Source: Dehalococcoidales bacterium (GTDB lineage Bacteria; Chloroflexota; Dehalococcoidia; Dehalococcoidales; RBG-16-60-22). Taken from it: DNA of 33,555 nt. The notes below the pieces were generated by a model. It was not told the DNA's origin. It saw only the letters and a list, made by a program, of their open reading frames with translations, and did no database searches. Each line of letters begins with the position of its first letter. Position 1 is the stretch's first letter. This document shows, in pieces, positions 1 to 25,887 of this stretch. Position numbers and translations under genes: made by a program. Location: positions 1-33,555 of the forward strand of contig JAQTMM010000015.1 of assembly GCA_028714335.1 (NCBI GenBank). Reading direction: 5' to 3'.

Positions 1-2
1 GA

Positions 3-791
3 ATTCCTCACACGCTTGAAGTCCCCGAGGTTATCAACGTGGACAGCGGCACTCGTTTTGCCTTTACCGGCTGGAACGATGGCGTTAGTTCAGCCTCGAG
101 GGTGGTGACTCACGGGTCGCTGCAAGCCAACTACCAAAAGGAATACCTCCTGACGATTAACTCGCCTTACGGCAATCCAACGGGCGCCGGCTGGTATGCC
201 ATGGGCGCTACCGCCAGTTTTTCCGTAACCGATTACGTTGAAACATTAAACACCAGGCGCACCTTCAACGGTTGGAGCGGGGCTTTTAGCGGCGCTACCG
301 CCAGCGGCACGTTGTTGATGGATAGCCCAAAGACGATAACCGCCGACTGGAGCAGTCAATACCTCCTAACGATAAATTCGGAATACGGCGCGCCTATCGG
401 AGCCGGCTGGTACAATGAAAGCCAATCGGCCAACGTATCCGTTGATTCTTCAACAGGCTCGATAATAAAACAGGTTTTTGACGGCTGGACGGGCGATATC
501 ACTACCACTAATCCCAGCACCAGCATTGATATGAATGGGCCAAAGGTTATCACCGCTGCCTGGCATACGGACTTGATGATGTTGTACATCATCATTATCG
601 TCGTCGTGGTTGTTGTGGCCGGCGTTATTACTTTTGTAGTACTCCGCCGCCGGGGCGGGACTCCGGGCGCTGCCGCAACGGCTGGCACACCTCCAGCTTC
701 AACTCGGATGACGGCGCATCCGCCGGTTGAACCTCCGCCGCCGGGCGGAACGCCTTCACCGCCGTCTCCGCCACCGCCGCCCACCAGATAA
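3..791 (+). CDS. Caspase/InlB-repeat surface protein, copy 1 (5' truncated)
   Basis: Only the C-terminal part is present; the reading frame is open to the window edge, so the ATG/GTG of the ORF track (39) is not the start. What is visible is the end of B-repeat 1, two full InlB-like B-repeats (YLLTINSPYG... and YLLTINSEYG...), a strongly hydrophobic helix of Ile/Val (IIIIVVVVVVAG) followed by RRR, and a proline-rich tail ending PPSPPPPPTR. By comparison with the downstream paralogues, a signal peptide and caspase-like domain should lie upstream, so the catalytic state of this copy is unknown. The predicted topology is extracellular repeats, a single membrane anchor and a short cytoplasmic tail. 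The C-terminal half is closest to copy 6. Confidence 0.88.
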   Translation: MPHTLEVPEVINVDSGTRFAFTGWNDGVSSASRVVTHGSLQANYQKEYLLTINSPYGNPTGAGWYAMGATASFSVTDYVETLNTRRTFNGWSGAFSGATASGTLLMDSPKTITADWSSQYLLTINSEYGAPIGAGWYNESQSANVSVDSSTGSIIKQVFDGWTGDITTTNPSTSIDMNGPKVITAAWHTDLMMLYIIIIVVVVVVAGVITFVVLRRRGGTPGAAATAGTPPASTRMTAHPPVEPPPPGGTPSPPSPPPPPTR

Positions 792-848: not shown

Positions 849-2411
849 ATGAGTAAGAGTTTATTTAAAATTCCTTTAGTTGTCTTTATCGTTGTTATCC
901 TGGTGTCGGCGGCATCTTTTATCCTGCCTTCCGCGCCAGCTCAGGCTGACGAATCCAGCCCCCAGTGCTGGGCTGTTTTTGCCGCTATATCCGACTACCA
1001 AAACGTCAACGACCTGCCTTACCCGGTGCAGGATTCTACCGCTCTTTACAACCTGTTCGGGCCAGTCTGGGGAGAGGACAACATGCAGCTGCTGGCGAAC
1101 TCCCAGGCAACCAAGGTGAACATTCTCCATGCCATCGATTGGCTGGCGGAGAACGCCGGAGTTAATGATACCGTGTTTTTCAGTTTTGCCGGGCACGGCG
1201 TTGAGGGCGGCTACCTCTGCCCTTATGAAGCCACAGCTTCTTATTCCAGCTATATTTCTTCCGACGAGCTTGCCGAAGCCTTAGCCGAGGTGCAGGCGCA
1301 AAGAATCGTTGTTGTCTTGAGCAACTGCTACGCCGGCGCCTTTAAACCCGATCTGACTAAAGACGGCAGGGTGGTTTTAATGGGCTGCCAGGCATCGGAA
1401 GTAGGCTGGGAAAGTACTAATCTGGGGCACGTGGTTTTTCTCTATTTCATCCTGCAGGCTTTTGAGAACTTTACCGACGCCGATGCCAATCACGATTACG
1501 AGCTTTCCGCCGAAGAGATTTTTAACTACGCCGCTCCGTTAGTCGTCCAGTATGAAACGGACCACCTTTTCGACCCCGTCCAGCACCCTGTACTCGGCGA
1601 CGGTTACATTAACGAACTGGCTTTGCTGGCGAGGTTCGTGTTCAATTTACAAACCAATTTACCGTCCGGCACACAAATCCTTACGGTGGACGACGTTGGG
1701 TATACCACAGCGCCGCCGTACCTGTGGTGGATTCCGGGTTCCAGTCATATAGTTACCGTGCCGGAAGAAGTGGCGGCGGGAACCGGCTCGCGTTATGCCT
1801 TTGCCGGTTGGAGCGACGGTGAAACCTCTGCGACCAGGATTCTCTCTAAAGGCTCTTTCAGCGTTAGTTATTATATGGAACGACTGCTTAATATCATTTC
1901 CGCTTACGACGAGCCTATTGGAGCCGGCTGGTATCTGGACCGCTCCTACGCCGATATCTCGGTAATACCCTACATAGAATCGGCAGACACCAGGCGCATT
2001 TTTACCGGCTGGAGCGGGGATATTACCGGAACAAGCTCTGCGGTTTCGCTGTTCATGGACGCACCGAAGACCGTCACCGCCAACTGGCGCAGCGAATACC
2101 TCCTCACGCTCAACTCGGAATACGGCAAGCCTGTTGGCGCCGGGTGGTATGATGAACTTGATTCGGTTAATGTTTCCGTGGAGCCGGTGCAGGGTTTCAT
2201 CGTCCGCCAGATTTTCGACGGGTGGAGTGGGGATTTAACGTCTAAAGATTCCAGAACCACCGTCACCATGAACGTCCCAAAGACCCTCACGGCTAGTTGG
2301 CACACCGATTACCTCCAGCTTTATATCCTGATTGTAGTTGTAGTGGTTATCGCCGGAGGCGTAATCTTCACCGTCGTTCTTATGCGGCGTAAAAGAACTG
2401 CCGGATTCTAG
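849..2411 (+). CDS. Surface caspase-like protease with InlB B-repeats, copy 2 (dyad intact)
   Basis: 520 residues. A signal peptide (residues 1-33, ending APAQA) is followed by a caspase-like peptidase C14 domain (about 38-255). The His is in AGHG (H116) and the Cys in SNCYAG (C160), so the His/Cys dyad is present. An EF-hand-like loop DANHDYELSAEE (212-223) sits late in the domain. Three B-repeat units follow, the first degenerate, then a Val/Ile transmembrane helix and the short tail RRKRTAGF. The family is related to meta- and orthocaspases, which cut after basic residues and are often calcium dependent; substrate and role here are unknown. The start is supported by AAAGGA 5 nt upstream. 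It is predicted to act outside the membrane, anchored at the C-terminus. Confidence 0.88.
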   Translation: MSKSLFKIPLVVFIVVILVSAASFILPSAPAQADESSPQCWAVFAAISDYQNVNDLPYPVQDSTALYNLFGPVWGEDNMQLLANSQATKVNILHAIDWLAENAGVNDTVFFSFAGHGVEGGYLCPYEATASYSSYISSDELAEALAEVQAQRIVVVLSNCYAGAFKPDLTKDGRVVLMGCQASEVGWESTNLGHVVFLYFILQAFENFTDADANHDYELSAEEIFNYAAPLVVQYETDHLFDPVQHPVLGDGYINELALLARFVFNLQTNLPSGTQILTVDDVGYTTAPPYLWWIPGSSHIVTVPEEVAAGTGSRYAFAGWSDGETSATRILSKGSFSVSYYMERLLNIISAYDEPIGAGWYLDRSYADISVIPYIESADTRRIFTGWSGDITGTSSAVSLFMDAPKTVTANWRSEYLLTLNSEYGKPVGAGWYDELDSVNVSVEPVQGFIVRQIFDGWSGDLTSKDSRTTVTMNVPKTLTASWHTDYLQLYILIVVVVVIAGGVIFTVVLMRRKRTAGF

Positions 2412-2429
2412 CCTTCAAACTGAAATCAA

Positions 2430-2440
2430 TGTGGTATATC
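2430..2440 (+). promoter_or_regulatory. Promoter-like box upstream of copy 3
   Basis: TGTGGTATATC matches the TGTGGTAxAAT box of the other spacers except at the hexamer end. It lies 56 nt before the chosen start of copy 3. Confidence 0.35.
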
Positions 2441-2496
2441 AGTAACATTCTTGATATCATATAGGTAGCATGCTTTTTAAGAGGGAAGGACCGGCC

Positions 2497-4086
2497 ATGA
2501 GAAAGTTATTATCTAAAACCCCAGTTTGTTTGTTACTGGTAACAGTTTTCTTATTATTATCGGCGTTTATTCTGCCCGGCGCCCCGGCTATGGCGGCAGA
2601 CACGGACCCTCAATGCTGGGGGGTTTTTGCCGGGATATCCGACTACGAATTTATCAACGACCTTAATTACGCCGATGATGATGCCATTGACCTCTATAGC
2701 GTTTTTACTCCGGTTTGGGGCGCTTCCAATACCAGGCTACTGGTGGATAGTGAGGCGTCAAAAGCCGATATTTTAGATGCCATTGCCTGGATGGCGGATA
2801 ATGCTGGAGAAAATGATACCGTCGTCTTTACATTTTCCGGGCACGGCACTGACCTTGGCGAATTATGCACATATGATTTCTATTTCACCGACTCCGGCAT
2901 ATCGACGACCGTGCTTTATCAGGCGCTTAACCAGGTAAAGGCCGAGAAAATCGTTGTTATTATAGATGTCTGCCACGCCGGTGAGTTCCAGTATATGCTA
3001 TCGAAAGATGGGCGGGTGCTGTTGCTGGCAAGCCAGGCGGACGAGTTGTCTCAAGAAAGTTATGAATTACGTAACGGAGTTTTCACTTACTATATTCTCC
3101 AGGCTATCAGTGAATTCGATGATATTGATACGAATCACGATTATGAGCTTTCCGCCGAAGAAATTGCCGCCTATGCCAGCCTGATGACATCGCTTTACGA
3201 TTATTCGCAAAACCCGGTTATTGACGATGAATTCATCGGGGAACTGGCGTTAATAGCGAAGTTCATCTTCATTCTGGACACGAGCCTCCCGCCCGGTACG
3301 GTAATCTTAACGCTGGACGGGGTTGACTATACATCGCTGCCCCCGGAAAAGTTGTGGAGCCCAGGTTCCACCCATACTATTGCTGTGCCCGAATGGGTGT
3401 ATATTAATAGCGGCACGCGTTACGCCTTTGCCGGCTGGAATGACGGCGAGGCTTTGGCCGTCAGGGTTATTACCAAGGGGTTTTTCAGCGCAGAGTATAA
3501 CATCGAACAACTTTTAAAAATAGTCTCGCCTTTTGGCGACTTTCCCGACGCCGGGTGGTATCTGGATAATTCGCTGGCCGAATTTTCCGTGACGCCCTAT
3601 ATCGAATACACGGGTACCAGGCACTACTTTATCAGTTGGAGCGGCGATTTTTCGGGCAATGCTGAAACAGGGTCGCTGTATATGGACAGCCCCAAAACCG
3701 TATATGCCAACTGGAGGACCGAATACCTCCTCAATGTCAGCTCGGAATACGGCACACCGACCGGCGCCGGCTGGTACGGTGAGGGCGAAACAGTAAGTAT
3801 TTCCATTGAGCCGGAACAGGGACTCTTTGTGCGGCAAATTTTTGACGGCTGGACCGGCGATTTAGCCGGCGTTCAGTCCAGTGTCAGCTTTACTATGGAT
3901 TCGCCTAAAGATATTATTGCTATCTGGCACACTGATTACGTGCAACTTTATATCCTGATTATCGTTATATTAGTTGTAGCTGGGGTAGTAACTGCAACTA
4001 TTATACTTCTACGACGGAGGGGTAGTACGCCACCTGTTCCACCCGCTGCAGTACCGCCGCCACCTCCTCCACCTCCTGCCAGCTAA
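2497..4086 (+). CDS. Surface caspase-like protease with InlB B-repeats, copy 3 (dyad intact)
   Basis: 529 residues from the chosen start. The ORF track begins at 2470, but the ATG at 2497 has a good AGGGAAGGA ribosome site, starts directly at the signal peptide (MRKLLSK...) and matches the other paralogues. The signal peptide ends around APAMAA. The caspase-like domain has SGHG (H116) and DVCHAG (C159), the most canonical dyad in the array. The EF-hand-like loop DTNHDYELSAEE is present. Three B-repeats, a transmembrane helix (LYILIIVILVVAGVV) and the tail RRR...PPPPPPPPAS follow. It is probably an active, surface-anchored cysteine protease. Substrate and activation are unknown. Confidence 0.88.
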   Translation: MRKLLSKTPVCLLLVTVFLLLSAFILPGAPAMAADTDPQCWGVFAGISDYEFINDLNYADDDAIDLYSVFTPVWGASNTRLLVDSEASKADILDAIAWMADNAGENDTVVFTFSGHGTDLGELCTYDFYFTDSGISTTVLYQALNQVKAEKIVVIIDVCHAGEFQYMLSKDGRVLLLASQADELSQESYELRNGVFTYYILQAISEFDDIDTNHDYELSAEEIAAYASLMTSLYDYSQNPVIDDEFIGELALIAKFIFILDTSLPPGTVILTLDGVDYTSLPPEKLWSPGSTHTIAVPEWVYINSGTRYAFAGWNDGEALAVRVITKGFFSAEYNIEQLLKIVSPFGDFPDAGWYLDNSLAEFSVTPYIEYTGTRHYFISWSGDFSGNAETGSLYMDSPKTVYANWRTEYLLNVSSEYGTPTGAGWYGEGETVSISIEPEQGLFVRQIFDGWTGDLAGVQSSVSFTMDSPKDIIAIWHTDYVQLYILIIVILVVAGVVTATIILLRRRGSTPPVPPAAVPPPPPPPPAS

Positions 4087-4105
4087 TTGAAGAGATGTGT
4101 AAAAA
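4087..4105 (+). promoter_or_regulatory. Promoter-like box upstream of copy 4
   Basis: TTGAAG, then TGTGTAAAAA 3 nt later, a degenerate form of the box seen before copies 5 and 6. The hexamer ends exactly 41 nt before the start codon, as it does in front of copies 5 and 6. Confidence 0.35.
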
Positions 4106-4146
4106 CATATCACCGACTCGTTAGCAGCCGGCAAGGAGAATATTAA

Positions 4147-5754
4147 ATGAAAAAGCTTTTGTTTAACAAAGCGATTACCGCTTTTGTTGCCACACTGATA
4201 CTTTTAGCAATTACATTCATATTACCGTGTCTGCCGGCGCAAGCCGATGAATCCAGCCCCGAGGTATGGGGACTATTTGTCGGTGTATCTTATAAATTGT
4301 CAGCCCCTGAGGTTAAGTATGCCGATGACGACGCCCGCGCTTTATACGAGACACTTTCTCCAATCTGGGGCGCTGCTAACACCAAACTCCTGGTTGATAG
4401 CGAAGCGGACGAACAAGAGATACTGGATGGCGTTGCCTGGCTGGCTCAAAACGCCGACGCCGATGATACGGTAGTTTTTACTTTCTCCGGGCTTGGCACG
4501 GGAGTCGGTGCTATCTGTCCTGCCGACTTTAATCCGCTTGAGGGTGGCCTGACTACAGATCAACTAGCTAAAGCTTTTGAACCTGTTAAGGCGGGTAAAA
4601 TACTTATAATTCTGGATTGCAACTATGCTGCAAAGTTCCGTGTTAGTCTAACCAAGGAAGGCCGATTTTTAATGTTTTCCAGTCCTATGTACGGAGGGGC
4701 TAGAGAAAGCGATGAAATCCAACACGGCTATTTGTCCTACTTTGTCCTGCAGGCGCTTAATAGTCCCGACGTTTACGACGTCAATGAAAACTACGAACTT
4801 TCCGCCGAGGAAATTGCTTCCTATGCTACTGAAATGACGGCTAATACAACCAGCAACCTTCCGCCGGTAATTGTTGACCTGAATAGCGACGAATTCCCTT
4901 TACTCACGTACTTTACATATACTTCGAGTCTGGAGTTGCCTGCTGAAGCCACTATCCTGACGCTTGACGGCGTTGATTATAATGCGCCGCCGGAAATGCA
5001 GATTTGGGCCCCCGGTTCCACTCATACGATGACCGTGCCCGATGTTATTGATGTAGGCACCGGAACACGTTATTTATTCGTCAGGTGGGATGACGACAGT
5101 GTTTCAACTGCACGGATTATTTCTAAAGGCTCATACAGTGCCGGTTACAGGCTGGAATACCTGTTCGATATTTCCTCCGCATATGGAGTGGTCACCAGCG
5201 CCGGTTGGTACAGTCGCAATACCACTGTAGATTTCTCGGTCACTCCTTTTTTGGAAACGGCATATGCCAAGTTCTACTTTGAGGGCTGGAGTGGTGACTA
5301 TACCGGGACATTGTCCACAGGCTCGATACTTATGGACGGGCCAAAAACCGTTACCGCCGTTTGGCGTACCGTGTATCTGTTAGTGTTGGAATCTGACTAC
5401 GGCAATCCCAACGGCGCGGGCTGGTATAACGAGGGGGCGCCGGTCAACATCTCCATTGAGTCTGTCCATGGCTCATTAATCCGGCAGATTTTCATCGGCT
5501 GGAGCGGCGACTTTTATAGCCTGGACGCCAGCACGATGGTTAGAATGGATTCGTCTAAAGTAATCGTGGCTAACTGGATGGTGGATTACCTATGGCTGTA
5601 TGTCTTCATTCTTATCATAACTGTGGTGGTTGGTATATCTGTTTATTTACTCGTCCATTACAGGGTGTTCCGCCGCCTTTTCCCCCCACCCCGCCAACCG
5701 CGCAAGGTTAAGATAATGCCGCCCTCACCGCCCCCGTCACGCCGTAAGAGATAA
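4147..5754 (+). CDS. Pseudocaspase/InlB-repeat surface protein, copy 4
   Basis: 535 residues with a signal peptide (to about residue 33, LPAQA). The caspase-like fold aligns throughout with copies 2 and 3, but the catalytic His is Leu (SGLG, L116) and the catalytic Cys position is Asn (LDCNYAA, N159). A Cys sits one residue earlier (C158). It is therefore probably inactive as a protease. The EF-hand-like loop DVNENYELSAEE is kept. Three B-repeats and a transmembrane helix (YVFILIITVVVGISVYLLV) follow. The tail is proline-rich and basic (PPPRQPRKVK..., ending PPPSRRKR). The ribosome site AAGGAG is 7-8 nt before the ATG. The reading frame is intact, so it is a maintained pseudoenzyme rather than a pseudogene. 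Confidence 0.87.
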   Translation: MKKLLFNKAITAFVATLILLAITFILPCLPAQADESSPEVWGLFVGVSYKLSAPEVKYADDDARALYETLSPIWGAANTKLLVDSEADEQEILDGVAWLAQNADADDTVVFTFSGLGTGVGAICPADFNPLEGGLTTDQLAKAFEPVKAGKILIILDCNYAAKFRVSLTKEGRFLMFSSPMYGGARESDEIQHGYLSYFVLQALNSPDVYDVNENYELSAEEIASYATEMTANTTSNLPPVIVDLNSDEFPLLTYFTYTSSLELPAEATILTLDGVDYNAPPEMQIWAPGSTHTMTVPDVIDVGTGTRYLFVRWDDDSVSTARIISKGSYSAGYRLEYLFDISSAYGVVTSAGWYSRNTTVDFSVTPFLETAYAKFYFEGWSGDYTGTLSTGSILMDGPKTVTAVWRTVYLLVLESDYGNPNGAGWYNEGAPVNISIESVHGSLIRQIFIGWSGDFYSLDASTMVRMDSSKVIVANWMVDYLWLYVFILIITVVVGISVYLLVHYRVFRRLFPPPRQPRKVKIMPPSPPPSRRKR

Positions 5755-5774
5755 TTGAATCGGTGTGGTAAAAT
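5755..5774 (+). promoter_or_regulatory. Promoter-like box upstream of copy 5
   Basis: TTGAAT, three bases, then TGTGGTAAAAT. The hexamer TAAAAT (5769-5774) ends 41 nt before the start of copy 5. TTGxAx lies only 8 nt from the hexamer, too close for a normal -35, but the arrangement recurs before copies 4 and 6. Confidence 0.5.
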
Positions 5775-5815
5775 AAAGGTATCATTCCCAAGGCGATGGC
5801 TGGTGAGGAGGCTGT

Positions 5816-7219
5816 TTGATAGTCAGGCATTTCTTTAAAGTCATACTGATTTTTATATGCGCCATAACCGTACTGATTACAGCTAATTTTGCCTTGCCTG
5901 GCGCCACTACCCAGGCGGCCGATGCCACTGCCGAGTGCTGGGGAGTCTTTATCGGGATTTCCACTTTTCAGAACCTCGATGATGAAGTAAAGTATGCCGC
6001 TAGCGGCCAGCAGGAACTCTGTAACGATTTTAGCGCCGTTTGGGGCGCCGACCATGTTAGACTAGTAACTGATTCCGAGGCGACCAAGAGCGGCATCATG
6101 GAAGCCATAGCGTGGCTGGACGAGCGGGCAGACGGTAACGATACGGTGCTTTTTAGCGTTACCAGCACCGGCGTTGCAGGCCCGGGGCCGGATTACTATT
6201 TCTGGACTTATGATTCTTTGCCTGATTCCTGGGATAACGATATTTCAGCTGAAGAGCTCGATAGTGCCTTTGAAGTTATAGACGCCGCCGGAGCGGTCTT
6301 TATCCTCTCTTTTGCCCACGCGGGCGGCTTCCTTAACAACTTGAGCGGCAGCAACAGAGTCATTTTAGCGGGTTGTGAGGAGGATGAGTGGGGCTACTAC
6401 GACGATTCCTTGGAGAACCCGGTTTTTATTTACCACATAATTGAGGCGCTTGATAATTTTGGTGAAGTAGATGTGGATAATAACTACGCCGTCACCGCCG
6501 AAGAAATTTTTAACTACGCCGCCCCAGCTACCACCAGTTTTGATGAAAGCCACGGCTATTTGCCTGCCCAGCACCCCGTGCTTAACGACCATTTTGACGG
6601 CGAACTGCCTTTGATTGCTGAATTCGCGCTTTTCACCAATATCAACCTTCCTGCCGGTTCCGTTATTACCATTAGCGGCGCGGAATATGATATTCTGCCG
6701 GTTATATTTCTTACCGCGCCGGGCATTGCCTATACCGTTAAAGTGCCGGATGTAATCTATATTAGCAGCGATACCCGTTACGTGTTCAGTGACTGGGGTG
6801 ACGATGATGTTTCAACCACAAGGGCAATGCTATACGGCGTCCATACCGCCAACTTTAATAAAGAATACCTCCTGAAAATATACTCCACCTACGGCGAGGC
6901 TGCCGGGGACGGCTGGTATAAAGACGGGGAGGAAGTCAACGTTTTTGTGGTGGCGTACCAAGAGCTGATAATTAAACATGTTTTTAATGGCTGGACCGGC
7001 GATTTTACAGGTAAGGAAGCTAATATCACATTTACTATGAATTCGCCAAAAGTTATCACCGCTATGTGGAGCGTGGAATATCTCAATCTGTACATCCTGT
7101 TGGCTATATTGATTATCTTTATTGCCGGTATATTTTTGACTATTTTCCTGGTGATTATTCGTAGAGGTGCTAAAAAACATAAGGCTAAAAGAAAAAAGCC
7201 GCGTCGTTCTGCCAAATAG
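5816..7219 (+). CDS. Pseudocaspase/InlB-repeat surface protein, copy 5 (short form)
   Basis: 467 residues from a TTG start preceded by GAGGAGG (only 4 nt spacing); no better start gives the signal peptide (MIVRHFFKVILIFI...). The caspase-like fold has lost both catalytic residues: the His position is Thr (VTSTG, T118) and the Cys position is Ala (SFAHAG, A167). The EF-hand-like loop DVDNNYAVTAEE is kept. Only one well-formed B-repeat follows the degenerate first unit, where the other copies have two, which explains the shorter length. A transmembrane helix (LYILLAILIIFIAGIFLTIFLVI) leads to a strongly basic tail (KKHKAKRKKPRRSAK) without the poly-proline of copies 1, 3 and 6. Confidence 0.85.
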   Translation: MIVRHFFKVILIFICAITVLITANFALPGATTQAADATAECWGVFIGISTFQNLDDEVKYAASGQQELCNDFSAVWGADHVRLVTDSEATKSGIMEAIAWLDERADGNDTVLFSVTSTGVAGPGPDYYFWTYDSLPDSWDNDISAEELDSAFEVIDAAGAVFILSFAHAGGFLNNLSGSNRVILAGCEEDEWGYYDDSLENPVFIYHIIEALDNFGEVDVDNNYAVTAEEIFNYAAPATTSFDESHGYLPAQHPVLNDHFDGELPLIAEFALFTNINLPAGSVITISGAEYDILPVIFLTAPGIAYTVKVPDVIYISSDTRYVFSDWGDDDVSTTRAMLYGVHTANFNKEYLLKIYSTYGEAAGDGWYKDGEEVNVFVVAYQELIIKHVFNGWTGDFTGKEANITFTMNSPKVITAMWSVEYLNLYILLAILIIFIAGIFLTIFLVIIRRGAKKHKAKRKKPRRSAK

Positions 7220-7239
7220 TTGCATAAATGTGGTAAAAT
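7220..7239 (+). promoter_or_regulatory. Promoter-like box upstream of copy 6
   Basis: TTGCAT, three bases, then TGTGGTAAAAT. The hexamer (7234-7239) ends 41 nt before the ATG of copy 6, the same distance as for copies 4 and 5. Confidence 0.5.
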
Positions 7240-7280
7240 AACGCATTGATTACTGTTACGTTATAAAAGGAGAAAGTACA

Positions 7281-8933
7281 ATGAAAAAATTGTTTGGTAA
7301 AATATCTTTTCTAATACTGATGGTTCTACTTGCCACTACCTTCATTATGCCGTGTGCCGTTGCGCAGGCAGCCGCAGGCGACCCCGAATGCTGGGCAGTT
7401 ATTGTCGGCATTAATGAGAATCAAAGTGGTACGCGTAACTGGCATTTCGGTATTGAAGATGCCCAGGCTTTTAATGATGCCATCTCACCGACCTGGGGTT
7501 CCGACCACATCAGACTGCTGACAGGAACTGAGGCAACCAAGGCAGCTATCCTGCAGTCCGTCGGTTGGCTAGCTTCAAATGCAGGAGCCGATGATACTGT
7601 ATTATTCTATTTTTCTGGTTGGGATGATGATGTTCTTTATCCGTACGATTACAATGCGGCCGGTAGTGAGATAACAGCCGCGCAATTAGGTACCGCCTTC
7701 AATGCTGTTACCGCTCAAAAAGCCGTTTTTGTTTTTGGTGGTTGGGAAGCGAATGTTATGCGAAGCGCCCTGATGGCAAATGGACGAGTTATCATGTTTG
7801 CCGCTGAAGAAACCGGTGCAGTGTGGTATTCCAACACCAATCAATCCCATATCTTCAATAAATATATTACAGCTGCTCTCGATAACTTCAACGACGCTGA
7901 TGCTAACAGCGACTATCAATTGACCGCTGAAGAAATTTTCTACTACGCGGCGGATTTAACCACGCAGGACCATATTTCCCAGGTACCCGTAATGGTTGAT
8001 AATTACACGGGCGGCCTGGCAATAATGGCCAAGTTTATATTCGATACTAATATGATTCTGCCTGCCGGAGCAACAATCGTAACGATTGACGGCACCAACT
8101 ATACCTCGATACCGTCACCGTTCCTCTGGGTGCCGGGCGGCAACCATACTGTGACCGTGCCCGGTGAAATCAGCGGAGATACCGGAACACGCTACGTCTT
8201 TACCGGCTGGAATGGGGGCGCTACTGTGCCCACCCAGACCTTCTCTTACGGGCAACATACCGCTAACTTTGAAAAGCAATATCTACTCACGGTTAATTCC
8301 ACTTACGGGAATCCAACCGGCCAGGGGTGGTATACCGCCGGTTCTACCGCCAGTTTCTCCATCACTAACTACATTGAAACCTCCGACACCAAACGTTACT
8401 TCGGCGGCTGGAGCGGCGATGTTACCGGTTCTACCACCAGCGGCTCTCTAGTAATGAATGCCCCGAAAACGATTACCGCCAGCTGGGATTCCGAATATCT
8501 CCTGACGATAAACTCGGAGTACGGCACGCCTACCGGTGCCGGCTGGTATAACGCCGGACAAACTGCCAACGTTGCTGTTGCCGAATCCGAAGGTTTCATG
8601 ATCAAGAATGTCTTCGATGGCTGGACCGGCGACCTGAATACCGCTACCGCCAGCACCAGCATCGTTATGAACGGCCCCAAGGTTATCACCGCTACCTGGC
8701 ACTCCGACTACATGATGCTGATTATTATCATCGTGGTTGTGGTGGTTGTCATCGGTGTGGTAATCACCCTCGTGCTTATCCGCCGCAAGGGCGGTACCCC
8801 GGGCGTTCCTCCTACTGCTATGGCGCCTGCCGGTACTCCTCCGATGGGTTCAGCACCGCCGGCTTCAACACCGCCTCCGGCAGCAGGCCCACCTCCGGTG
8901 CCTCCACCTCCGCCTCCTCCACCGGCCGCGTAG
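7281..8933 (+). CDS. Pseudocaspase/InlB-repeat surface protein, copy 6
   Basis: 550 residues with ribosome site AAGGAGAAAG before the ATG. The signal peptide ends around VAQAAA. In the caspase-like fold the His position is Trp (FSGWDDD, W114) and the Cys position is Trp (FGGWEAN, W155), so no protease activity is expected. The EF-hand-like loop DANSDYQLTAEE remains. Three B-repeats, a very hydrophobic helix (IIIIVVVVVVIGVV), RRK and a long Pro/Ala tail ending in eight prolines and AA follow. The repeats and tail resemble copy 1 more than the neighbouring copies. Its role is unknown; a decoy, scaffold or calcium-responsive adhesion role would fit. Confidence 0.87.
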   Translation: MKKLFGKISFLILMVLLATTFIMPCAVAQAAAGDPECWAVIVGINENQSGTRNWHFGIEDAQAFNDAISPTWGSDHIRLLTGTEATKAAILQSVGWLASNAGADDTVLFYFSGWDDDVLYPYDYNAAGSEITAAQLGTAFNAVTAQKAVFVFGGWEANVMRSALMANGRVIMFAAEETGAVWYSNTNQSHIFNKYITAALDNFNDADANSDYQLTAEEIFYYAADLTTQDHISQVPVMVDNYTGGLAIMAKFIFDTNMILPAGATIVTIDGTNYTSIPSPFLWVPGGNHTVTVPGEISGDTGTRYVFTGWNGGATVPTQTFSYGQHTANFEKQYLLTVNSTYGNPTGQGWYTAGSTASFSITNYIETSDTKRYFGGWSGDVTGSTTSGSLVMNAPKTITASWDSEYLLTINSEYGTPTGAGWYNAGQTANVAVAESEGFMIKNVFDGWTGDLNTATASTSIVMNGPKVITATWHSDYMMLIIIIVVVVVVIGVVITLVLIRRKGGTPGVPPTAMAPAGTPPMGSAPPASTPPPAAGPPPVPPPPPPPPAA

Positions 8934-9085: not shown

Positions 9086-10120
9086 ATGCCGGAATGTCCT
9101 AACTGTGGACTTGAAGCTCTAAGAACTAAAGATTGGGTTTGTCAGTGGTGCGGTTATCCGCTGATATCGAACTCATTTAAGACAATAGATAAGACGTACA
9201 AAGAGCTGCAGGAAGAACGGTCGCCGGCGCAAATGCCGCCGCCCGAAACTACGCAGCCCCGGCCGCGACCCGAAAGTAGGCCGGAGCCGCAACCGAGAAT
9301 TGAGCAGCCCGAACAGCCTGTTTATGAGATGCCGGAGCGACCGGTATCTCCTTCCCAGCCTCACCCAAAAGCGGAACGCGCGGCTCCTGAACCTCCCGTT
9401 GAACGGCAGCCAGAGGCCATACCTCCGCGCATACCTGAAGAACAAGCCCGCCCCGAGGCTAAAACAACTCCACCTGTTGCCAAAACTCCGGTTGTGCCTG
9501 AACCCGAACCCAAACCTGAACCTGAACCTGAACCTTACGTTCCCGAGGCTGTTGAGGATACCGCCCCCGAATCGCCGCAGTATGAAGAGGAAGCTCCGCC
9601 CGAAGAGGCAACTCCCCCCGCCCGGCAAGAGCTCCAAGACGAGGCCCAGCTAGAGCCCCAGGAAGAGTTCCCGCAAGAGCCGGCTATACCGGAGGAACAG
9701 CCGCCCGTTCAGAATGAGCCGCTGCCATCGGCGTCAAAGCCGGAATTCAACATGGAGCCGGAACCGGTGCCGGACTTTGAGATTGAACCGGAAGACATTG
9801 AAGACGGCATGGAAATAGCCGTAGAACAAATCGACGCCTTATTCAGAAAGGACCAGGATGTCGCCAATCATGTCTTCACCGGCAAGACCTTCATCATCAA
9901 CGGCATCGTGGAGAAGGTATTTATCAGGGACCACCTCGATATCCGTTATATCATGCTGACCGGCATTATGCAGGGGATTAGCTGGAATCTGCGCTGCACC
10001 TTTGAAAAGGAAAACACCCGGGATTTAAGCGGGCTTCAAGAGGGGCAGGTGGTAAAGGTTCAGGGCACTTACGACGGCGTTGGCAAGAACATTATCTTTA
10101 AGGATTGCGCCTTGGTTTAG
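9086..10120 (+). CDS. Zinc-ribbon protein with Pro/Glu-rich linker and OB-fold-like domain
   Basis: 344 residues in three parts. An N-terminal zinc ribbon (CPNC and CQWC, residues 4-23) is followed by about 190 residues of low-complexity Pro/Glu sequence including PEPEPKPEPEPEP, probably disordered. The C-terminal domain of about 90 residues (from HVFTGKTFIINGIVEKV to FKDCALV) resembles the tRNA_anti-like OB-fold family. No signal peptide or transmembrane helix is seen, so it should be cytoplasmic. GGGTGAGGT 6 nt before the ATG supports the start. The role is unknown; OB folds bind nucleic acid, oligosaccharide or protein. Its 3' end overlaps the convergent NUDIX gene by 23 nt. Confidence 0.75.
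   Translation: MPECPNCGLEALRTKDWVCQWCGYPLISNSFKTIDKTYKELQEERSPAQMPPPETTQPRPRPESRPEPQPRIEQPEQPVYEMPERPVSPSQPHPKAERAAPEPPVERQPEAIPPRIPEEQARPEAKTTPPVAKTPVVPEPEPKPEPEPEPYVPEAVEDTAPESPQYEEEAPPEEATPPARQELQDEAQLEPQEEFPQEPAIPEEQPPVQNEPLPSASKPEFNMEPEPVPDFEIEPEDIEDGMEIAVEQIDALFRKDQDVANHVFTGKTFIINGIVEKVFIRDHLDIRYIMLTGIMQGISWNLRCTFEKENTRDLSGLQEGQVVKVQGTYDGVGKNIIFKDCALV
9497..9535 (+). repeat. CCTGAA-type hexanucleotide microrepeat
   Basis: Six or so imperfect tandem CCTGAA/CCCGAA units encode the PEPEPKPEPEPEP stretch. The tract may be prone to length change by slippage in whole codon pairs. Confidence 0.7.
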
Positions 10121-12305: not shown

Positions 12306-13469
12306 ATGAATACCCAAAAACATTTTACTCTCCTGAAAACCTGCGACAATGCCCGCGCCGGGGAACTTAATACCCCTCACGGTAAAATCCCTACGCCCGT
12401 CTTTATGCCCGTCGGCAGCCAAGCGACGGTTAAGACCCTCACCCCGGAGGATGTAAAGTCTCTGGGCTTTAACATGATTTTAACCAACACCTATCACCTC
12501 TATTTGCGCCCCGGCGTTGACGTCGTTAAAAAGCTGGGCGGACTCCACGACTTTATGGGCTGGGGCGGCGCGATTCTTACCGACAGCGGCGGCTACCAGG
12601 TCTTTAGCCTTTCCCCCCTCTGCAAAATCACCGACGAAGGCGTTAAGTTCCGCTCGCACATTGACGGCTCCGAACACTTCCTTACCCCCGAACTGGCCGT
12701 TAAATACCAGGAAGCTTTGGGTGCCGACGTTATCATGGTGTTGGATGAATGTTCCGCTTACGGCGACGCCAAAGAGAAAATCCAGAAGGCGATGGACAGG
12801 ACCCACCGATGGGCGAAGCGGTGCCTTAAATCCCACAAAACCAAGAACCAGGCGCTTTACGCCATTGTTCAGGGCGGCATGTTCCCGGACTTAAGAAAAG
12901 CCTCCGCGGAATATTTAACTCAGCTCGATTTTCCTGGCTATGCCATCGGCGGCTTAAGCGTCGGCGAGCCTAAAGACGTCACCTTCCCCCTTATCGAACA
13001 GACCACAGCGCTTTTGCCCCCCGCTAAGCCCCGCTACCTGATGGGCGTCGGCGCGCCGGAGGACTTAGTCGAAGGCGTGGCGCGGGGCATCGATATGTTC
13101 GATTGCGCTTTGCCTACCCGTGTTGCACGTAACGGCGCGCTTTATACGAGGCAGGGGAGGGTGAATATCCGCCGCGCTATTTACTCTAAGATAGATAAGC
13201 CCATTGACCCATCATGCGACTGCTATACCTGCCGCACCTTTTCCGCCGCCTATCTTAACCACCTCTTCCGCGCTGAGGAGCTTTTAGCTTTACGCCTGGC
13301 GACCAACCACAACCTGCGCTTTTTAAACAACCTGATGAAAGACATCCGCAGCGCTATCATGGACGGCACGTTCGACCGCTTTGCTAAAAGCTTCCTGAAA
13401 ACCTACCAAACGACTAACGAACAGACCCGCGTGGCGCAGAAGGGCAAGTGGCTTAAGGGCAGAAAATAA
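12306..13469 (+). CDS. tgt: Queuine tRNA-ribosyltransferase (tRNA-guanine transglycosylase)
   Basis: 387 residues, the bacterial Tgt length. The enzyme replaces guanine 34 in GUN anticodons of tRNA Asp, Asn, His and Tyr with preQ1 on the way to queuosine. Visible signatures are TDSGGYQVFSL (substrate pocket and general Asp), GGLSVGE, the nucleophile region MFDCALPTR, and the zinc site CDCYTC with a downstream His (NHLF). The reading frame starts directly with MNTQKHFTLLKTCDNARAG, typical of the family. The ribosome site is weak (AAAAAAGA). No queA or yajC neighbour is present; the gene stands between the GIY-YIG unit and a small zinc-ribbon gene. Confidence 0.96.
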   Translation: MNTQKHFTLLKTCDNARAGELNTPHGKIPTPVFMPVGSQATVKTLTPEDVKSLGFNMILTNTYHLYLRPGVDVVKKLGGLHDFMGWGGAILTDSGGYQVFSLSPLCKITDEGVKFRSHIDGSEHFLTPELAVKYQEALGADVIMVLDECSAYGDAKEKIQKAMDRTHRWAKRCLKSHKTKNQALYAIVQGGMFPDLRKASAEYLTQLDFPGYAIGGLSVGEPKDVTFPLIEQTTALLPPAKPRYLMGVGAPEDLVEGVARGIDMFDCALPTRVARNGALYTRQGRVNIRRAIYSKIDKPIDPSCDCYTCRTFSAAYLNHLFRAEELLALRLATNHNLRFLNNLMKDIRSAIMDGTFDRFAKSFLKTYQTTNEQTRVAQKGKWLKGRK

Positions 13470-13516
13470 CCTTTTAAATGTGACTTTTTTCTTATTTTCT
13501 GTTATTGTGTTTCCAC

Positions 13517-13522
13517 TATAAT
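13517..13522 (+). promoter_or_regulatory. -10 element of the small zinc-ribbon gene
   Basis: A perfect TATAAT 29 nt before the ATG, in a T-rich spacer after tgt. The -35 is weak. Confidence 0.4.
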
Positions 13523-13551
13523 ATGCTTAAAAGGTTTAGTGGAGGCGCATT

Positions 13552-13701
13552 ATGGCGAAAGATAAAGATAAGAAAGAACACAAACATTTGCCCCCGGTGA
13601 AATCCGGCGATAAATACATTTGCCCGCACTGCCATATAGAATTGCCATACAATAAAGACTGCCCGACGTGTAAGCTGGGCATTGACTGGTCGAAGATTTA
13701 A
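13552..13701 (+). CDS. Small zinc-ribbon protein (49 aa, not in ORF track)
   Basis: The ORF encodes 49 residues: a lysine-rich start (MAKDKDKKEHKHLPP) and a zinc ribbon with CPHC and CPTC separated by ten residues, ending LGIDWSKI. The ATG is preceded by GTGGAGG with good spacing and a TATAAT further up, so it is very likely a real gene. Function is unknown; the basic arm plus zinc ribbon would suit binding to nucleic acid or to a larger complex. Its stop codon abuts the stop of the convergent moaD-like gene. Confidence 0.8.
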   Translation: MAKDKDKKEHKHLPPVKSGDKYICPHCHIELPYNKDCPTCKLGIDWSKI

Positions 13702-13974
13702 TTATCCGCCGTGAATCACGTATAAAAGACTAAACTTATCGCCATTTTTTAACGGTTGGTTCATATCCTTGGGGTAAACGCTTTGCCCGTTGATAAAGTA
13801 GTCGTAAGTACGCGCCAGATTGCCGTTCTTGTCCAGCAATAAACGTTTTAGCTTGGGGAAGCGTTCTACCAGAGCGTGCAGACATTCGCGGACGGTTTTG
13901 CCCTCAACATCAACACTTAGAGTGTCATTGGTATATAACCCGAAAAACGAGGACATCTCGATATTTACACTCAT
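13702..13974 (-). CDS. MoaD/ThiS-like ubiquitin-fold sulfur carrier
   Basis: 90 residues ending in the diagnostic Gly-Gly (VIHGG) needed for adenylation and thiocarboxylate formation. The ubiquitin-like pattern includes EGKTVRECLHALVERFP and a C-terminal LKNGDKFSLLYVIHGG. Its start overlaps the stop of the MoeB-like gene by 4 nt (ATGA), so the two are translationally coupled, which supports an E1/carrier pair. Given the fdhD and MOSC genes in the same run, molybdopterin synthesis is likelier than thiamine synthesis, but a role in another thio-transfer pathway is possible. Confidence 0.85.
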   Translation of the reverse strand: MSVNIEMSSFFGLYTNDTLSVDVEGKTVRECLHALVERFPKLKRLLLDKNGNLARTYDYFINGQSVYPKDMNQPLKNGDKFSLLYVIHGG

Positions 13975-14714
13975 CGTTTCCTCTTGTCGCCGCAGACTTC
14001 ACAGTAGGGGTCGCGGTTGACTCTAAATTCGTTGAATTTCATTTGCAGGCCGTCGTAGGTCAGCAGCCGGTTCGTTAACAATTCACCTTGTCCTGTAATA
14101 CATTTTATCACCTCGGTTGCCTGGATGCAGCCGATAATCCCCGGCGTTACCCCGATGACGGGGAATTTTTCCGCAGGCATTTTAATCCCATGGAATAGGC
14201 AATTAAGGCAGGCGCTCTTGCCCGGTAAAACTGTCAGCGCTCTCCCCTCAAAGCCGTATACCGCCCCGTGAAACAAGGGTAATTTTTTCTCTACCGCCGC
14301 TCTGTTCAGTATATAACGGGTGGGCAGGTTATCCATGGCGTCCACAATAACGTCTGAGTCTCCGACTAATTTTAAGACATTTTTATCGTCTATCGTCTCA
14401 CTGGTGGTTTCTATCTTGGTATTGGGATTGAACTCGTGTAGTTTTTCCGCCGCCGACTTCACCTTGTTTTTACCGATGTCCGCTTGCCACTGCAGTATCT
14501 GCCGGTTGAGGTTGCTTAATTCCACTTTATCGTGGTCGGTGATGCGCAGTGTACCGATGCCGGCCACCGCCAGATAAATTGCCACCGGCGAACCTAACCC
14601 CCCCGCCCCGGCCAGGAAGACCTTAGCCTTCTTGAGCTTTTCCTGCCCCGCCTTCCCGAATCCGTGCAGGATTATCTGGCGGGTATATCTCTCCTGCTCT
14701 TCTTTAGTAAGCAT
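13971..14714 (-). CDS. MoeB/ThiF/HesA-type E1-like adenylyltransferase
   Basis: 247 residues. It activates the C-terminal glycine of a ubiquitin-like sulfur carrier with ATP. Signatures: N-terminal RYTRQIILHGFG, nucleotide motif GAGGLGSP, NLNRQIL, DAMDNLPTR, and the zinc cysteines in CLNC and CEVC. There is no C-terminal rhodanese domain. A conserved Cys thioester site is not obvious to me. It ends overlapping the moaD-like start, giving the obvious partner. It follows nadA by 11 nt, so it belongs to the same transcript. Confidence 0.9.
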   Translation of the reverse strand: MLTKEEQERYTRQIILHGFGKAGQEKLKKAKVFLAGAGGLGSPVAIYLAVAGIGTLRITDHDKVELSNLNRQILQWQADIGKNKVKSAAEKLHEFNPNTKIETTSETIDDKNVLKLVGDSDVIVDAMDNLPTRYILNRAAVEKKLPLFHGAVYGFEGRALTVLPGKSACLNCLFHGIKMPAEKFPVIGVTPGIIGCIQATEVIKCITGQGELLTNRLLTYDGLQMKFNEFRVNRDPYCEVCGDKRKR

Positions 14715-15658: not shown

Positions 15659-16489
15659 TTAAGCACTGCGTACCCTCTCGGCGCCGCAGTAAATCTTCAT
15701 GCTGTTCTTTTTGGGCGTCCTTGCAGACGCGTCGGTGATAGCCTTTGAACCTATCGTCCGTACGAACCCGGCGATGGTTAAGCCGCACTTCTTAGCCGTC
15801 TCCAGACCTTTATTGGTGACGGCCGTTCTCGTAGCGACAACCGGGATGCCGCTGCGGCAGATTTTTGTCACCATCTCCGAAGCCATACGCCCCGTGGATA
15901 CTAAAAACAGGCGGCTGCAGTCTATTTTATGCAGTAATGTATAGCCGATTATTTTATCCAGCGTGTTGTGCCGCCCAATGTCTTCCACGATGCAGACGGG
16001 GCTGGCTCTGGTATTAAAAAGGCCGGTGGCATGGACGCCTTCGGTCTCGGAGTAGAGCAGGGCGTTTTTAAAGAGCTGATTCATCGCCGAAAAGAGCGTG
16101 CGTTTGCTAATGACTAAGTCAGACTTTATTTCACTCAAATCGGCTTCCGGGAAATATATTGACTTGCCGCCGCCGGAAACAATGCGGTAATTGGTTTTAG
16201 CAGCGTCTGTGAGAGTCTTGCGCCGGTCTTTAAGGGTTACATGCGCTGTGTTATTCAATATTTCCAACGATGCTACTTCTTCCAGGCTGTTGATGATTCC
16301 CTGCCCGAAGAGGTAGCCCATAGCGAATTCCTTGAGAAGGTTGGGGGTAATGGACGGAATGACCAGCTGTTTGCCGTTGACGAAAATGGGGAACTCCTGC
16401 TCGATGGCGACGTCCGCCTTGAACGGAGCCGCCCGCCCAGCGCTGTATTGCCAGCCGCTTAATTTCCTCGATGATTTAACGCTTGCCAT
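15659..16489 (-). CDS. fdhD: FdhD-like sulfurtransferase, copy 1
   Basis: 276 residues. FdhD moves sulfur from a cysteine desulfurase to the Mo/W cofactor of formate dehydrogenase. Family motifs present: PVCIVEDIGRHNTLDKIIGY, STGRMASEMV, and VVATRTAVTNKGLETAKKCG. In the loop where E. coli FdhD carries its CxxC (Cys121/Cys124), this protein reads IVSGGGKSIYF, without cysteine. Either another residue serves, or the protein delivers cofactor without carrying persulfide. It begins 1 nt after the stop of the second fdhD-like gene; the two are paralogues in tandem, and this one is longer. Confidence 0.88.
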   Translation of the reverse strand: MASVKSSRKLSGWQYSAGRAAPFKADVAIEQEFPIFVNGKQLVIPSITPNLLKEFAMGYLFGQGIINSLEEVASLEILNNTAHVTLKDRRKTLTDAAKTNYRIVSGGGKSIYFPEADLSEIKSDLVISKRTLFSAMNQLFKNALLYSETEGVHATGLFNTRASPVCIVEDIGRHNTLDKIIGYTLLHKIDCSRLFLVSTGRMASEMVTKICRSGIPVVATRTAVTNKGLETAKKCGLTIAGFVRTIGSKAITDASARTPKKNSMKIYCGAERVRSA

Positions 16490-16490
16490 T

Positions 16491-17192
16491 TTATGCGATT
16501 TTCTCCGGGTGAGTAAACACCACCATATCTTTACCCCGCACCAGCCCGATTAAAGTAATACCGGCTTTCTCGGCGGTTTCTATTGCCAGCGTCGTCGGCA
16601 CGCTCCTGGTGGCGATAACCGGGATGTTAACGTTGCGGCACTTGACTATCATCTCCGATGGCTGTTTGCCGGTGACGGTAACAATGGTATTGGTAAAATC
16701 AACGTTATGCAGCAGACCGTAGCCGATGGCTTTATCTAAAGCGTTATGGCGCCCCAGATCCTCCGCGATGCACACCGGTTCGCTGCCATTAATAAATAAG
16801 CCGGCGCAATGCACGGCTTCGGTTTCGGAAAACAGGTCGGATTTGTTTACAGCTCGAACACAATTTATAATGTCGTTCTGTTTAACTTTAAATTTGCTGC
16901 TGACCTTACGGCCAACACGCTGTTTCTTATACGTGTCGATTAATGCAACCTCGGCGACGTAGTTCCTGATGGTTAGAGAGCGGATTTCCCGGGCGCTTTT
17001 GATGACTCCCTGCGTCAGCAGGTGCCCTAAAACGAATTCCCTTTCCATCACCGCCAATATCATCGCGGTGGTGTAATGCTTGCCGCCGATGCGGATGGAC
17101 AACGCGGTTTCTTTTATGATTCTTTCTGCGGCTTTTCTGCCGCCGCCGTCCACCCGCGTGTATTCGATTTGTTCCAGGATTTTACTTTCCAT
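16491..17192 (-). CDS. FdhD-like protein, copy 2 (shorter)
   Basis: 233 residues. The FdhD core is evident: ETEAVHCAGLF, PVCIAEDLGRHNALDKAIGYGLL, VTGKQPSEMIVK and VIATRSVPTTLAIETAEKAG. The region that should hold the CxxC loop is shortened (VGRKVSSKFKVKQND) and has no cysteine. It is more divergent than copy 1. Its start lies inside the end of the MOSC gene (11 nt overlap), implying coupled translation. MOSC domains and FdhD both handle sulfur and molybdenum cofactor, so the three probably act together on a formate dehydrogenase or related molybdoenzyme encoded elsewhere. A subfunction or heteromeric partner role relative to copy 1 is possible. Confidence 0.82.
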   Translation of the reverse strand: MESKILEQIEYTRVDGGGRKAAERIIKETALSIRIGGKHYTTAMILAVMEREFVLGHLLTQGVIKSAREIRSLTIRNYVAEVALIDTYKKQRVGRKVSSKFKVKQNDIINCVRAVNKSDLFSETEAVHCAGLFINGSEPVCIAEDLGRHNALDKAIGYGLLHNVDFTNTIVTVTGKQPSEMIVKCRNVNIPVIATRSVPTTLAIETAEKAGITLIGLVRGKDMVVFTHPEKIA

Positions 17193-19477: not shown

Positions 19478-19506
19478 TTGAAGTACGCCCGTTTATTGTG
19501 TAGAAT
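19478..19506 (+). promoter_or_regulatory. selA promoter, apparently leaderless
   Basis: TTGAAG (19478-19483), 17 nt, TAGAAT (19501-19506) in the context TTGTGTAGAAT. The selA ATG is only 7 nt after the -10, so transcription would start at or next to the start codon. Confidence 0.55.
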
Positions 19507-19513
19507 TAAGCCG

Positions 19514-20854
19514 ATGGCTAAAGAATTACGAAGCTTGCCCGGTGTTAATAAAGTACTGACGGACGAACGCTTTAGTCGCATGGCTAAAGAGTACTCGCAC
19601 GACCTGGCGGTTAGCGTTATCCGGGAGGAATTAGAGCGGCAAAGGGAGTCCATTCAGGCAGGCAAGTCCGGCGATTTTTTAGACGTAATTGTAGATAACG
19701 CGCTGGAACGTTTAGCCGCTATTTTCACACCGAGCCTGCGCCGTGTTATCAATGCCTCCGGCGTTATTTTGCATACCAATCTCGGCCGCGCGCCTTTAAG
19801 CGACGATGCCCTTAAAGCGATGGCGGTTGCCGGCTACTCCAACCTTGAGTTTGATTTAGACAGCGGCAGTCGGGGGCAACGTCACGTCCATGTAGAAGAC
19901 CTGCTGTGCCGGTTGACCGGCGCCGAAGCCGCATTTGTCGTCAACAACAACGCCTCCGGCGTGATGCTGGGGCTGTCCGCTCTAGCCAAGCGTAAGGAGG
20001 TTATCGTCTCACGCGGGCAGGCGGTGGAAATAGGGGGAGGCTTCAGGGTGCCCGATGTCATGCGTCAGAGCGGCGCTAAACTTATTGAGGTGGGGACGAC
20101 CAACCGCACCTACTCCCGCGATTATGAAGAAGCCATTACGCCGTCCACCTGCGCTTTAATGCGCGTCCACTCCAGCAACTTTAAGCTGGTGGGCTTTACC
20201 AGCGAGGTCGCATTAGAAGAACTGGCGGCTATTGCCAAAAAGCATAACCTGATGCTGCTGGATGACCTCGGCAGCGGCAGTTTATTGAATACTACAGCTT
20301 TCGGCCTCGCTGCCGAACCGATGGTTCAGCAAAGCGTTAAAGCCGGGGCGTCGTTAACCTTCTTTTCCGGCGATAAGCTTTTAGGCGGCCCGCAGGCGGG
20401 CATCATCGTTGGAGAAAAGCAGTATATTGATAAACTAAAACGCCATCCCCTTGCCCGCGCCTTGCGCATAGATAAAACGCGGCTGACGGGACTGGCAGTG
20501 ACGTTAATGCATTATCTTAAGGACGAAGCTGTTGCCAAAATCCCCATCTGGCGCATGATTGCCGCGCCGCTTAAGGACATCGAAAAACGCGCCGGTATTT
20601 GGGCTAAAGCCTGCGGCGCCAAAGTCATTGACGGGGAGACGATGGTCGGCGGCGGCTCTTTACCCGGCGGCAGTTTGCCCACTAAACTGGTGGTATTGCC
20701 GGGCGGCAGCGCTTTAGCGAAAAAACTCCGATTACAAACGATGCCGGTCATCGGGCGGGTGGAAAAAGACCATTTGCTTTTAGACCCCCGCACCGTCCTC
20801 CCGGAAGAAGATGATATCGTTATCAAAGCTCTTACCAGCCTTGCTGTAAAATAA
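19514..20854 (+). CDS. selA: L-seryl-tRNA(Sec) selenium transferase
   Basis: 446 residues. SelA converts seryl-tRNA(Sec) to selenocysteyl-tRNA(Sec) with selenophosphate, using PLP. The PLP lysine is in FFSGDKLLGGPQAG (K288). RRVINASGVILHTNLGRAPLS and VEDLLCRLTGAEAAFVVNNNASG are family signatures. The ORF track starts at a TTG (19478) that is part of the -35; the ATG at 19514 gives the normal N-terminus (MAKELRSLPGVNKVL). No ribosome site is seen, in line with a leaderless message. selB follows two genes on the same strand and tRNA-Sec lies 6 kb away. selD is not in the window. Confidence 0.96.
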   Translation: MAKELRSLPGVNKVLTDERFSRMAKEYSHDLAVSVIREELERQRESIQAGKSGDFLDVIVDNALERLAAIFTPSLRRVINASGVILHTNLGRAPLSDDALKAMAVAGYSNLEFDLDSGSRGQRHVHVEDLLCRLTGAEAAFVVNNNASGVMLGLSALAKRKEVIVSRGQAVEIGGGFRVPDVMRQSGAKLIEVGTTNRTYSRDYEEAITPSTCALMRVHSSNFKLVGFTSEVALEELAAIAKKHNLMLLDDLGSGSLLNTTAFGLAAEPMVQQSVKAGASLTFFSGDKLLGGPQAGIIVGEKQYIDKLKRHPLARALRIDKTRLTGLAVTLMHYLKDEAVAKIPIWRMIAAPLKDIEKRAGIWAKACGAKVIDGETMVGGGSLPGGSLPTKLVVLPGGSALAKKLRLQTMPVIGRVEKDHLLLDPRTVLPEEDDIVIKALTSLAVK

Positions 20855-20874
20855 TATAAAACAGGAGTCTTGCC

Positions 20875-22050: not shown

Positions 22051-22056
22051 AGAAAA

Positions 22057-25817: not shown

Positions 25818-25828
25818 ATTATCACCAC

Positions 25829-25858
25829 TTGGAAAAACATCCCATTCTGTAGTAATAT
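25829..25858 (+). promoter_or_regulatory. Promoter of plsY copy 2
   Basis: TTGGAA, 18 nt, TAATAT. The surrounding bases (ATCACTTGGAAA... against ATCATTTGGAAA...) resemble the copy 1 promoter, so the duplication included the promoter. Confidence 0.45.
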
Positions 25859-25887
25859 ACGGTGAAATAACCAACAAAGGACAAAAC

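Follow-up and report, generated by a model that had tools for sequence, protein, structure and literature searches.

Prokaryotic caspase-family (C14) proteins that lack part of the catalytic His-Cys dyad—the pseudo-orthocaspases—are already described: 858 of 9,994 orthocaspases belong to this class, three of them in Chloroflexi and none in Dehalococcoidia (Klemencic et al. 2019, PMC6426788), and among putative bacterial metacaspases 84% have an intact dyad (Asplund-Samuelsson et al. 2012, PMC3501461). The known examples are mainly proteins of Cyanobacteria and Rhizobiales, of the Y/S, Y/N, Y/A and F/S types (residues at the His and Cys positions, respectively), and the cyanobacterial ones keep a conserved acidic pocket (PMC6426788). 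Prokaryotic pseudo-caspases have so far been mostly scattered genes of unknown role. Here we analyze a stretch of 33,555 nucleotides (the window) from a Dehalococcoidales bacterium (assembly GCA_028714335.1; 1.74 Mb in 105 contigs), which is the start of contig JAQTMM010000015.1 (C15) and carries, save for the first part of copy 1, a tandem array of six genes for caspase-shaped proteins, two apparently active (copies 2 and 3) and four dead (copies 1, 4, 5 and 6). Like the pseudo-orthocaspases, the dead copies have a prokaryotic C14 p20-type domain with a substituted dyad and a fold that is predicted to be kept. They differ in that the substitutions vary from copy to copy (L/N, T/A, W/W and F/N, and in a related genome R/D, K/W, Y/Y and Y/G), and in that the proteins are stalked, predicted to be membrane-anchored, and encoded several to a tandem array. 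An earlier note on this DNA had presented the array as a candidate undescribed system. That holds in part: pseudo-orthocaspases are on record (PMC6426788, PMC3501461), and what appears to be new is the membrane-anchored, multi-paralogue, mostly dead array. A literature search on Dehalococcoidia and caspase, covering open-licence papers, found nothing relevant.

Comparison with other dead proteases and other bacterial caspases places the array further. In Clostridioides difficile, CspB is active, CspA and CspC are pseudoproteases, and one of the dead proteases has been proposed to be a sensor (PMC6636752). As in the array, these are bacterial paralogues of which some (here one) are active and others (here two) dead, but the Csp proteins are soluble spore proteins with a subtilisin fold, from an unrelated family, and are a precedent for function only. 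FLIP(L) differs from the array copies as an intracellular heterodimer partner with death-effector domains. With the dead array copies this human pseudo-caspase shares a caspase fold without catalysis, which in its case is kept for regulation (PMC7586951). Scabies mites reportedly carry a multigene family of catalytically dead protease paralogues, with a serine protease fold and in a eukaryote, which serves as a lead only. The best-matching named bacterial caspase models are NCBIfam caspase_w_EACC1 and PADLOC caspase PDLC02987 (E down to 9e-16), and the scores against the EACC1 caspase model NF047832 (48.6 bits for copy 2 and 58.6 bits for copy 3) stay far below its cut-off of 140. The conflict-system caspases are different: the array proteins have no NTPase, effector-associated or TPR domain and are predicted to be exported rather than cytoplasmic, and no NTPase or EACC1 gene was found in the array flanks.

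The array and its catalytic dyads

Five complete reading frames span positions 849-8933 on the + strand, behind one that is cut by the start of the window (Table 1). Copies 2-6 share one architecture of signal peptide, caspase (C14) head, InlB-type repeats and C-terminal membrane helix. In every copy the hydrophobic stretch at the N terminus contains an A-x-A motif, and Arg/Lys residues come after the hydrophobic helix at the C terminus; copies 1, 3 and 6 have a Pro-rich tail in addition. These features predict surface-anchored, type I membrane proteins. The missing part of copy 1 lies on another contig of this genome, at the end of C4. The end of C4 and the start of the window share exactly 127 identical bases, unique in the genome and of a length typical of an assembler k-mer, and the joined reading frame encodes, in frame, 565 amino acids with F and N at the dyad positions. 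The order along the array is dead-active-active-dead-dead-dead.

The His-Cys dyad is present in copies 2 and 3 and absent from copies 1 (F/N), 4 (L/N), 5 (T/A) and 6 (W/W), which places the latter four, with a p20-type domain and substituted dyad residues, among the pseudo-orthocaspases. Judged by the missing residues alone, these four would be catalytically inactive. One or two copies per genome, here copies 2 and 3, are still probable extracellular cysteine proteases. With regard to the orthocaspase trait of cleaving after basic residues, the putative S1-loop position, assigned by alignment only, holds a Glu in copies 2 and 3 that copies 4 and 6 have lost. The Pfam C14 profile (PF00656) is significant, above its cut-off, for copies 2 (2.6e-9), 3 (6e-12) and 4 (1.1e-5); copies 5 and 6 are below detection for this profile, and their heads, at 29-40% identity to those of the other copies, mark them as plain paralogues. 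Membership in the caspase family is assigned by Pfam for copies 2, 3 and 4, by the modelled fold for copy 6, and by homology for copies 1 and 5. The InlB B-repeat profile PF18998 reaches or exceeds its cut-off in copies 2-6 and falls below it in the copy-1 fragment.

AlphaFold2 gave copy 6 (W/W) a mean predicted local distance difference test score (pLDDT) of 85.3, with most of the head above 90, and copy 3 (H/C) a score of 87.9, with the same order of elements. Foldseek matched both to caspase-7, legumain, a yeast metacaspase and Geobacter GSU0716; the top match of copy 6 was caspase-7 (TM score 0.76 by target length, E 6e-9). As modelled, dead copy 6 retains the caspase fold in its head. All six heads of the array also retain an EF-hand-like loop (D-x-N/D-x-D/N ... 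E), the ligand positions of which are kept in eight of the nine dead heads of the genus. The description given in the earlier note—five complete paralogues of one architecture, with the strand, coordinates and dyad residues of copies 2-6—was reproduced in full on recomputation (copy 3 numbered from the ATG at 2497, copy 5 from the TTG at 5816). Of the checks it had proposed, structure prediction, covering copies 3 and 6, gave a caspase fold in both models; the absence of such a fold, which it had named as a contrary outcome, was not found in either.

The explanation that we favor, and to which we give about an even chance, is that the dead heads are non-catalytic binding or sensing modules that arose by in-situ expansion of a surface orthocaspase and were maintained after repeated loss of the dyad. 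A surface-anchored orthocaspase-like gene would have undergone lineage-specific tandem expansion at one fixed chromosomal site. After duplication the heads would have lost the dyad repeatedly, keeping the fold and the EF-hand-like loop and staying under purifying selection. The former substrate groove, displayed outside the cell on the InlB stalk, would then serve as a surface that binds or senses a ligand, and signalling might run through the cytoplasmic tail beyond the membrane helix. An array of this kind suggests that the caspase fold has been put to new use in bacteria, as a surface module that does not cut.

One chromosomal site with one to six copies

The array occupies a fixed syntenic site, in the order divergent dnaJ-merR-clp operon, array, OB-fold gene, Nudix gene, acyl-CoA dehydrogenase gene and tgt. 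Relatives were sought by alignment, as a genome search with PF00656 gave no match even though hmmscan finds C14 in the window proteins. Among the genomes of the genus, copy number at this site ranges from one to six. Genomes G001 and G003 have a single H/C gene there. The site in G002, split over two contigs, holds A (K/W), B (Y/Y), C (H/C), D (R/D) and E (Y/G), together with a fragment, D', that is 94% identical to D and is either the same gene or a sixth copy (five to six copies in all, one of them H/C). In G004 the site holds an H/C copy, and a second locus holds another H/C copy with a dead N/G copy. At least one H/C copy is kept in every genome of the genus with a detected copy. The alignment search found no match in the 25 genomes of other genera of the family, and matches in 22 of 156 genomes of the order and in 28 of 393 genomes drawn from the class. 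The series is complete at this one site: two species have a single active gene, two others have mixed arrays of five to six copies, and there are orthologous dead lineages under constraint. With the series in hand, the question of why a caspase fold is kept without cutting can be addressed.

Such variation in copy number at one site is also what one would see in a diversifying surface display, in which the head would be a variable exposed scaffold (an adhesin, or a coat exposed to phages or predators) and its copies would diversify on a homogenised stalk as the genes duplicate and recombine, with no ligand specific to any one copy. Heads within the array are less alike than stalks (mean 37% vs 47%). 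In G004, two copies have heads that are 55% identical but stalk DNA (L026 1-230 and L027 1-230) that is 93-100% identical along the final ~220 bases up to the point where both contigs break, which likely reflects gene conversion of the stalk. In the window genome, however, stalks are 47% identical among themselves and 49% identical to those of G002; homogenisation across the array was dropped as an explanation, being absent here and seen only in G004. The dead orthologues recognisable in two species are stable lineages, and head omega (dN/dS) values of 0.05-0.17 in the informative orthologue pairs give no whole-domain sign of positive selection. We consider such a display unlikely and rank it behind a binding or sensing role.

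Separate losses of the dyad

In trees of the heads, calculated with and without the dyad columns, copy 6 and G002-A form one pair and copy 4 and G002-D another, each at 99-100% support. Both partners are dead (K/W and R/D), and the heads in these pairs are 46-53% identical, with intact frames. The copy 4/G002-D pair is sister to active copy 3 (99/96-97) and apart from copy 6, and copy 2 pairs with the H/C gene G002-C with moderate support (81-82/84-87). The head tree requires at least five changes between the active and dead states; a single clade of all dead array copies, at p = 0.058 in the approximately unbiased test, is not formally rejected. After duplication, the His-Cys dyad was lost several times independently. 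A stepwise loss along the array, as the earlier note had described it, was ruled out once copy 1, completed from C4, proved dead, and the losses fall on separate branches of the tree. The impression of steps arose because a contig break had cut off dead copy 1. Loss of the dyad is concentrated in the proteins with a repeat stalk: counted automatically, it affects 14 of 28 proteins with the stalk and 2 of 27 without (Fisher p = 0.0008, only indicative since the rows, which are the fetched homologues, are related), and a hand count, with duplicates removed and truncated rows reassigned, gave 13/27 against 1/25.

The earlier note had suggested that the dead copies might be decoys, scaffolds or regulators of the two active ones at the cell surface; allosteric partnership with copies 2 and 3 would be one form of this. 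The pseudo-caspase FLIP(L) acts in this manner with caspase-8, and caspase folds commonly dimerise. In the array, dead and active copies are adjacent and have the same stalk and membrane helix, and the retention of at least one H/C copy across the genus is in keeping with a regulated partner. Two further genomes argue otherwise. The single family member detected in G072 (90% complete) and in G114 (79%) is dead: its His position is occupied by Y, and its Cys loop carries a deletion. A purely regulatory role toward an active paralogue cannot explain these genomes, as there is none in them to regulate or decoy. Furthermore, most dead lineages have diverged from the active ones about as much as from each other. 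Regulation of the two active copies is weakened as an explanation by these results; we regard it as unlikely, on a par with surface display.

Purifying selection on the dead heads

None of the nine dead copies of the genus has an internal stop, and simulated neutral drift at 0.3 changes per site predicts 9-12 stops in each tested dead copy of the window, where none is seen. In a pairwise codon model, head omega is 0.10 for copy 4/G002-D and 0.13 for copy 6/G002-A, with omega = 1 rejected (2dlnL of 81 and 58, respectively). The comparison pairs gave 0.05 for active copy 2/G002-C and 0.17 for G003/G004a, and omega = 1 was rejected in every pair. In agreement with the earlier note, the dead copies are maintained: frames are intact, omega is about 0.1 and dead orthologues exist in a second species. 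Of the checks it had suggested in related genomes, synteny showed a conserved site, and dN/dS analysis of the heads of copies 4 and 6 against G002 showed purifying selection; the frameshifts or lack of purifying selection that it had named as contrary outcomes did not appear.

These results bear directly on whether the dead copies are simply decaying duplicates, pseudogenes in progress in a metagenome bin. The loss of the dyad in four of the six copies would fit, as would G002 D and D', in which non-synonymous changes outnumber synonymous ones. But the intact frames and the omega values lead us to reject decay as very improbable, and the dead copies retain, besides the caspase fold in the model of copy 6, the signal peptide, the EF-hand-like loop and the membrane helix.

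Several observations weigh against constrained binding or sensing heads. Synonymous divergence is saturated in the dead pairs (dS 3.7-4.3), so that the omega values are rough, and if the dyads were lost independently once the species had separated, some of the constraint on the dead heads could be older than the losses. The only recent dead pair, D and D' of G002, differs over 64 codons by four non-synonymous and two synonymous changes, too few to show constraint. Conservation of the pocket loops relative to the rest of the head is inconsistent between the dead pairs (Cys loop vs remainder, 0.87 vs 0.53 in copy 4/D and 0.47 vs 0.46 in copy 6/A), and because the pairs disagree, it was dropped as evidence of ligand binding. 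The tails of the window copies are only Pro-rich or basic, without a signalling domain, and the FHA, zinc-ribbon, kinase and TIR links described below are all in genomes other than that of the window.

Cytoplasmic tails and partner genes in relatives

Beyond the membrane helix, the dead proteins of G072 and G114 each carry a zinc ribbon. The dead stalked gene of G072 directly follows genes for TIR-zinc-ribbon and TIR-TPR proteins (the arrangement at L097 2396-6200), and a Ser/Thr kinase gene precedes the gene at L042, whose product of 512 amino acids is apparently the G114 protein. In the dead N/G stalked caspase of G004 (755 amino acids, L026 1259-3523), a Pro-rich cytoplasmic linker leads to a terminal FHA domain. 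These arrangements suggest that the family may couple an outside head to phospho- or TIR-type signalling inside the cell. The binding or sensing explanation could be extended tentatively, though we think the extension improbable, to caspase-derived surface receptors: mostly dead heads would bind ligand and signal through the helix to FHA or zinc-ribbon tails together with Ser/Thr kinases or TIR proteins, and the array would offer several specificities. If the heads are receptors, proteins of the caspase fold would have a role as sensors in bacteria besides that of executioners.

Stalked caspase genes are also found interleaved with genes for Lamin Tail Domain (LTD, PF00932) proteins, at L041 (in the order LTD-caspase-LTD-caspase), L043/L099 and L098. 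At L098 and L099 the LTD and caspase genes are followed by a double-zinc-ribbon/fibronectin-like gene, a conserved partnership.

Flanking genes and other features of the window

Table 1 Features of the array and its flanks (window positions unless a contig is named)
Feature	Position	Strand	Details
dnaJ, MerR-type regulator, Clp ATPase operon	L030 (contig C4) 9236-13014		divergent, upstream of copy 1
Copy 1, N-terminal part	L030 (contig C4, same genome) 13252-14285		dead F/N dyad
Copy 1, C-terminal part only	1..791	+	InlB repeats, membrane helix, Pro-rich tail
Copy 2	849..2411	+	signal peptide, caspase head H116/C160, InlB repeats, membrane helix
Copy 2, catalytic His116 codon	1194..1196	+	Cys160 codon 1326-1328
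Copy 3	2497..4086	+	architecture of copy 2, intact H116/C159, Pro-rich tail; in-frame ATG also at 2470
Copy 3, catalytic His116 codon	2842..2844	+	Cys159 codon 2971-2973
Copy 3, EF-hand-like loop	3127..3162	+	DTNHDYELSAEE
Copy 4	4147..5754	+	dead head L116/N159
Copy 4, Leu at His position	4492..4494	+	Asn at Cys position, 4621-4623
Copy 5	5816..7219	+	TTG start, dead head T118/A167, one InlB repeat fewer
Copy 5, Thr at His position	6167..6169	+	Ala at Cys position, 6314-6316
Copy 6	7281..8933	+	dead head W114/W155
Copy 6, Trp at His position	7620..7622	+	Trp at Cys position, 7743-7745
Copy 6, equivalent EF-hand-like loop	7899-7934	+	DANSDYQLTAEE
Downstream neighbour	9086..10120	+	zinc ribbon, Pro/Glu-rich linker, OB-fold (PF12869), by Pfam

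The dnaJ gene adjoins the array in all five genomes of the genus with the site. In four genomes, the spacer between them contains a TTGACA..TAgAAT promoter-like site directed at the caspase gene. Towards dnaJ there is a conserved inverted repeat resembling CTTAAnnAT..ATnnTTAAG. A search of the spacer for the heat-shock HspR HAIR operator gave no match with up to four mismatches allowed. A scan for promoters of the individual copies gave no excess of sites, with 13 against 12.0 expected from shuffles. An element resembling TGTGGTAAAAT recurs between the array copies. The neighbouring OB-fold gene is preceded by its own promoter-like TTGACA..TAATCT and is syntenic in G001, G002 and G003.

Elsewhere, the window encodes a selenocysteine system (selA, selB and tRNA-Sec at 19478-23907 and 26535-26631). 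Two adjacent FdhD-like paralogues, assigned by sequence motif only, lie at 15659-17192, and two adjacent PlsY-like acyltransferase paralogues, identified by eye, at 25191-26532.

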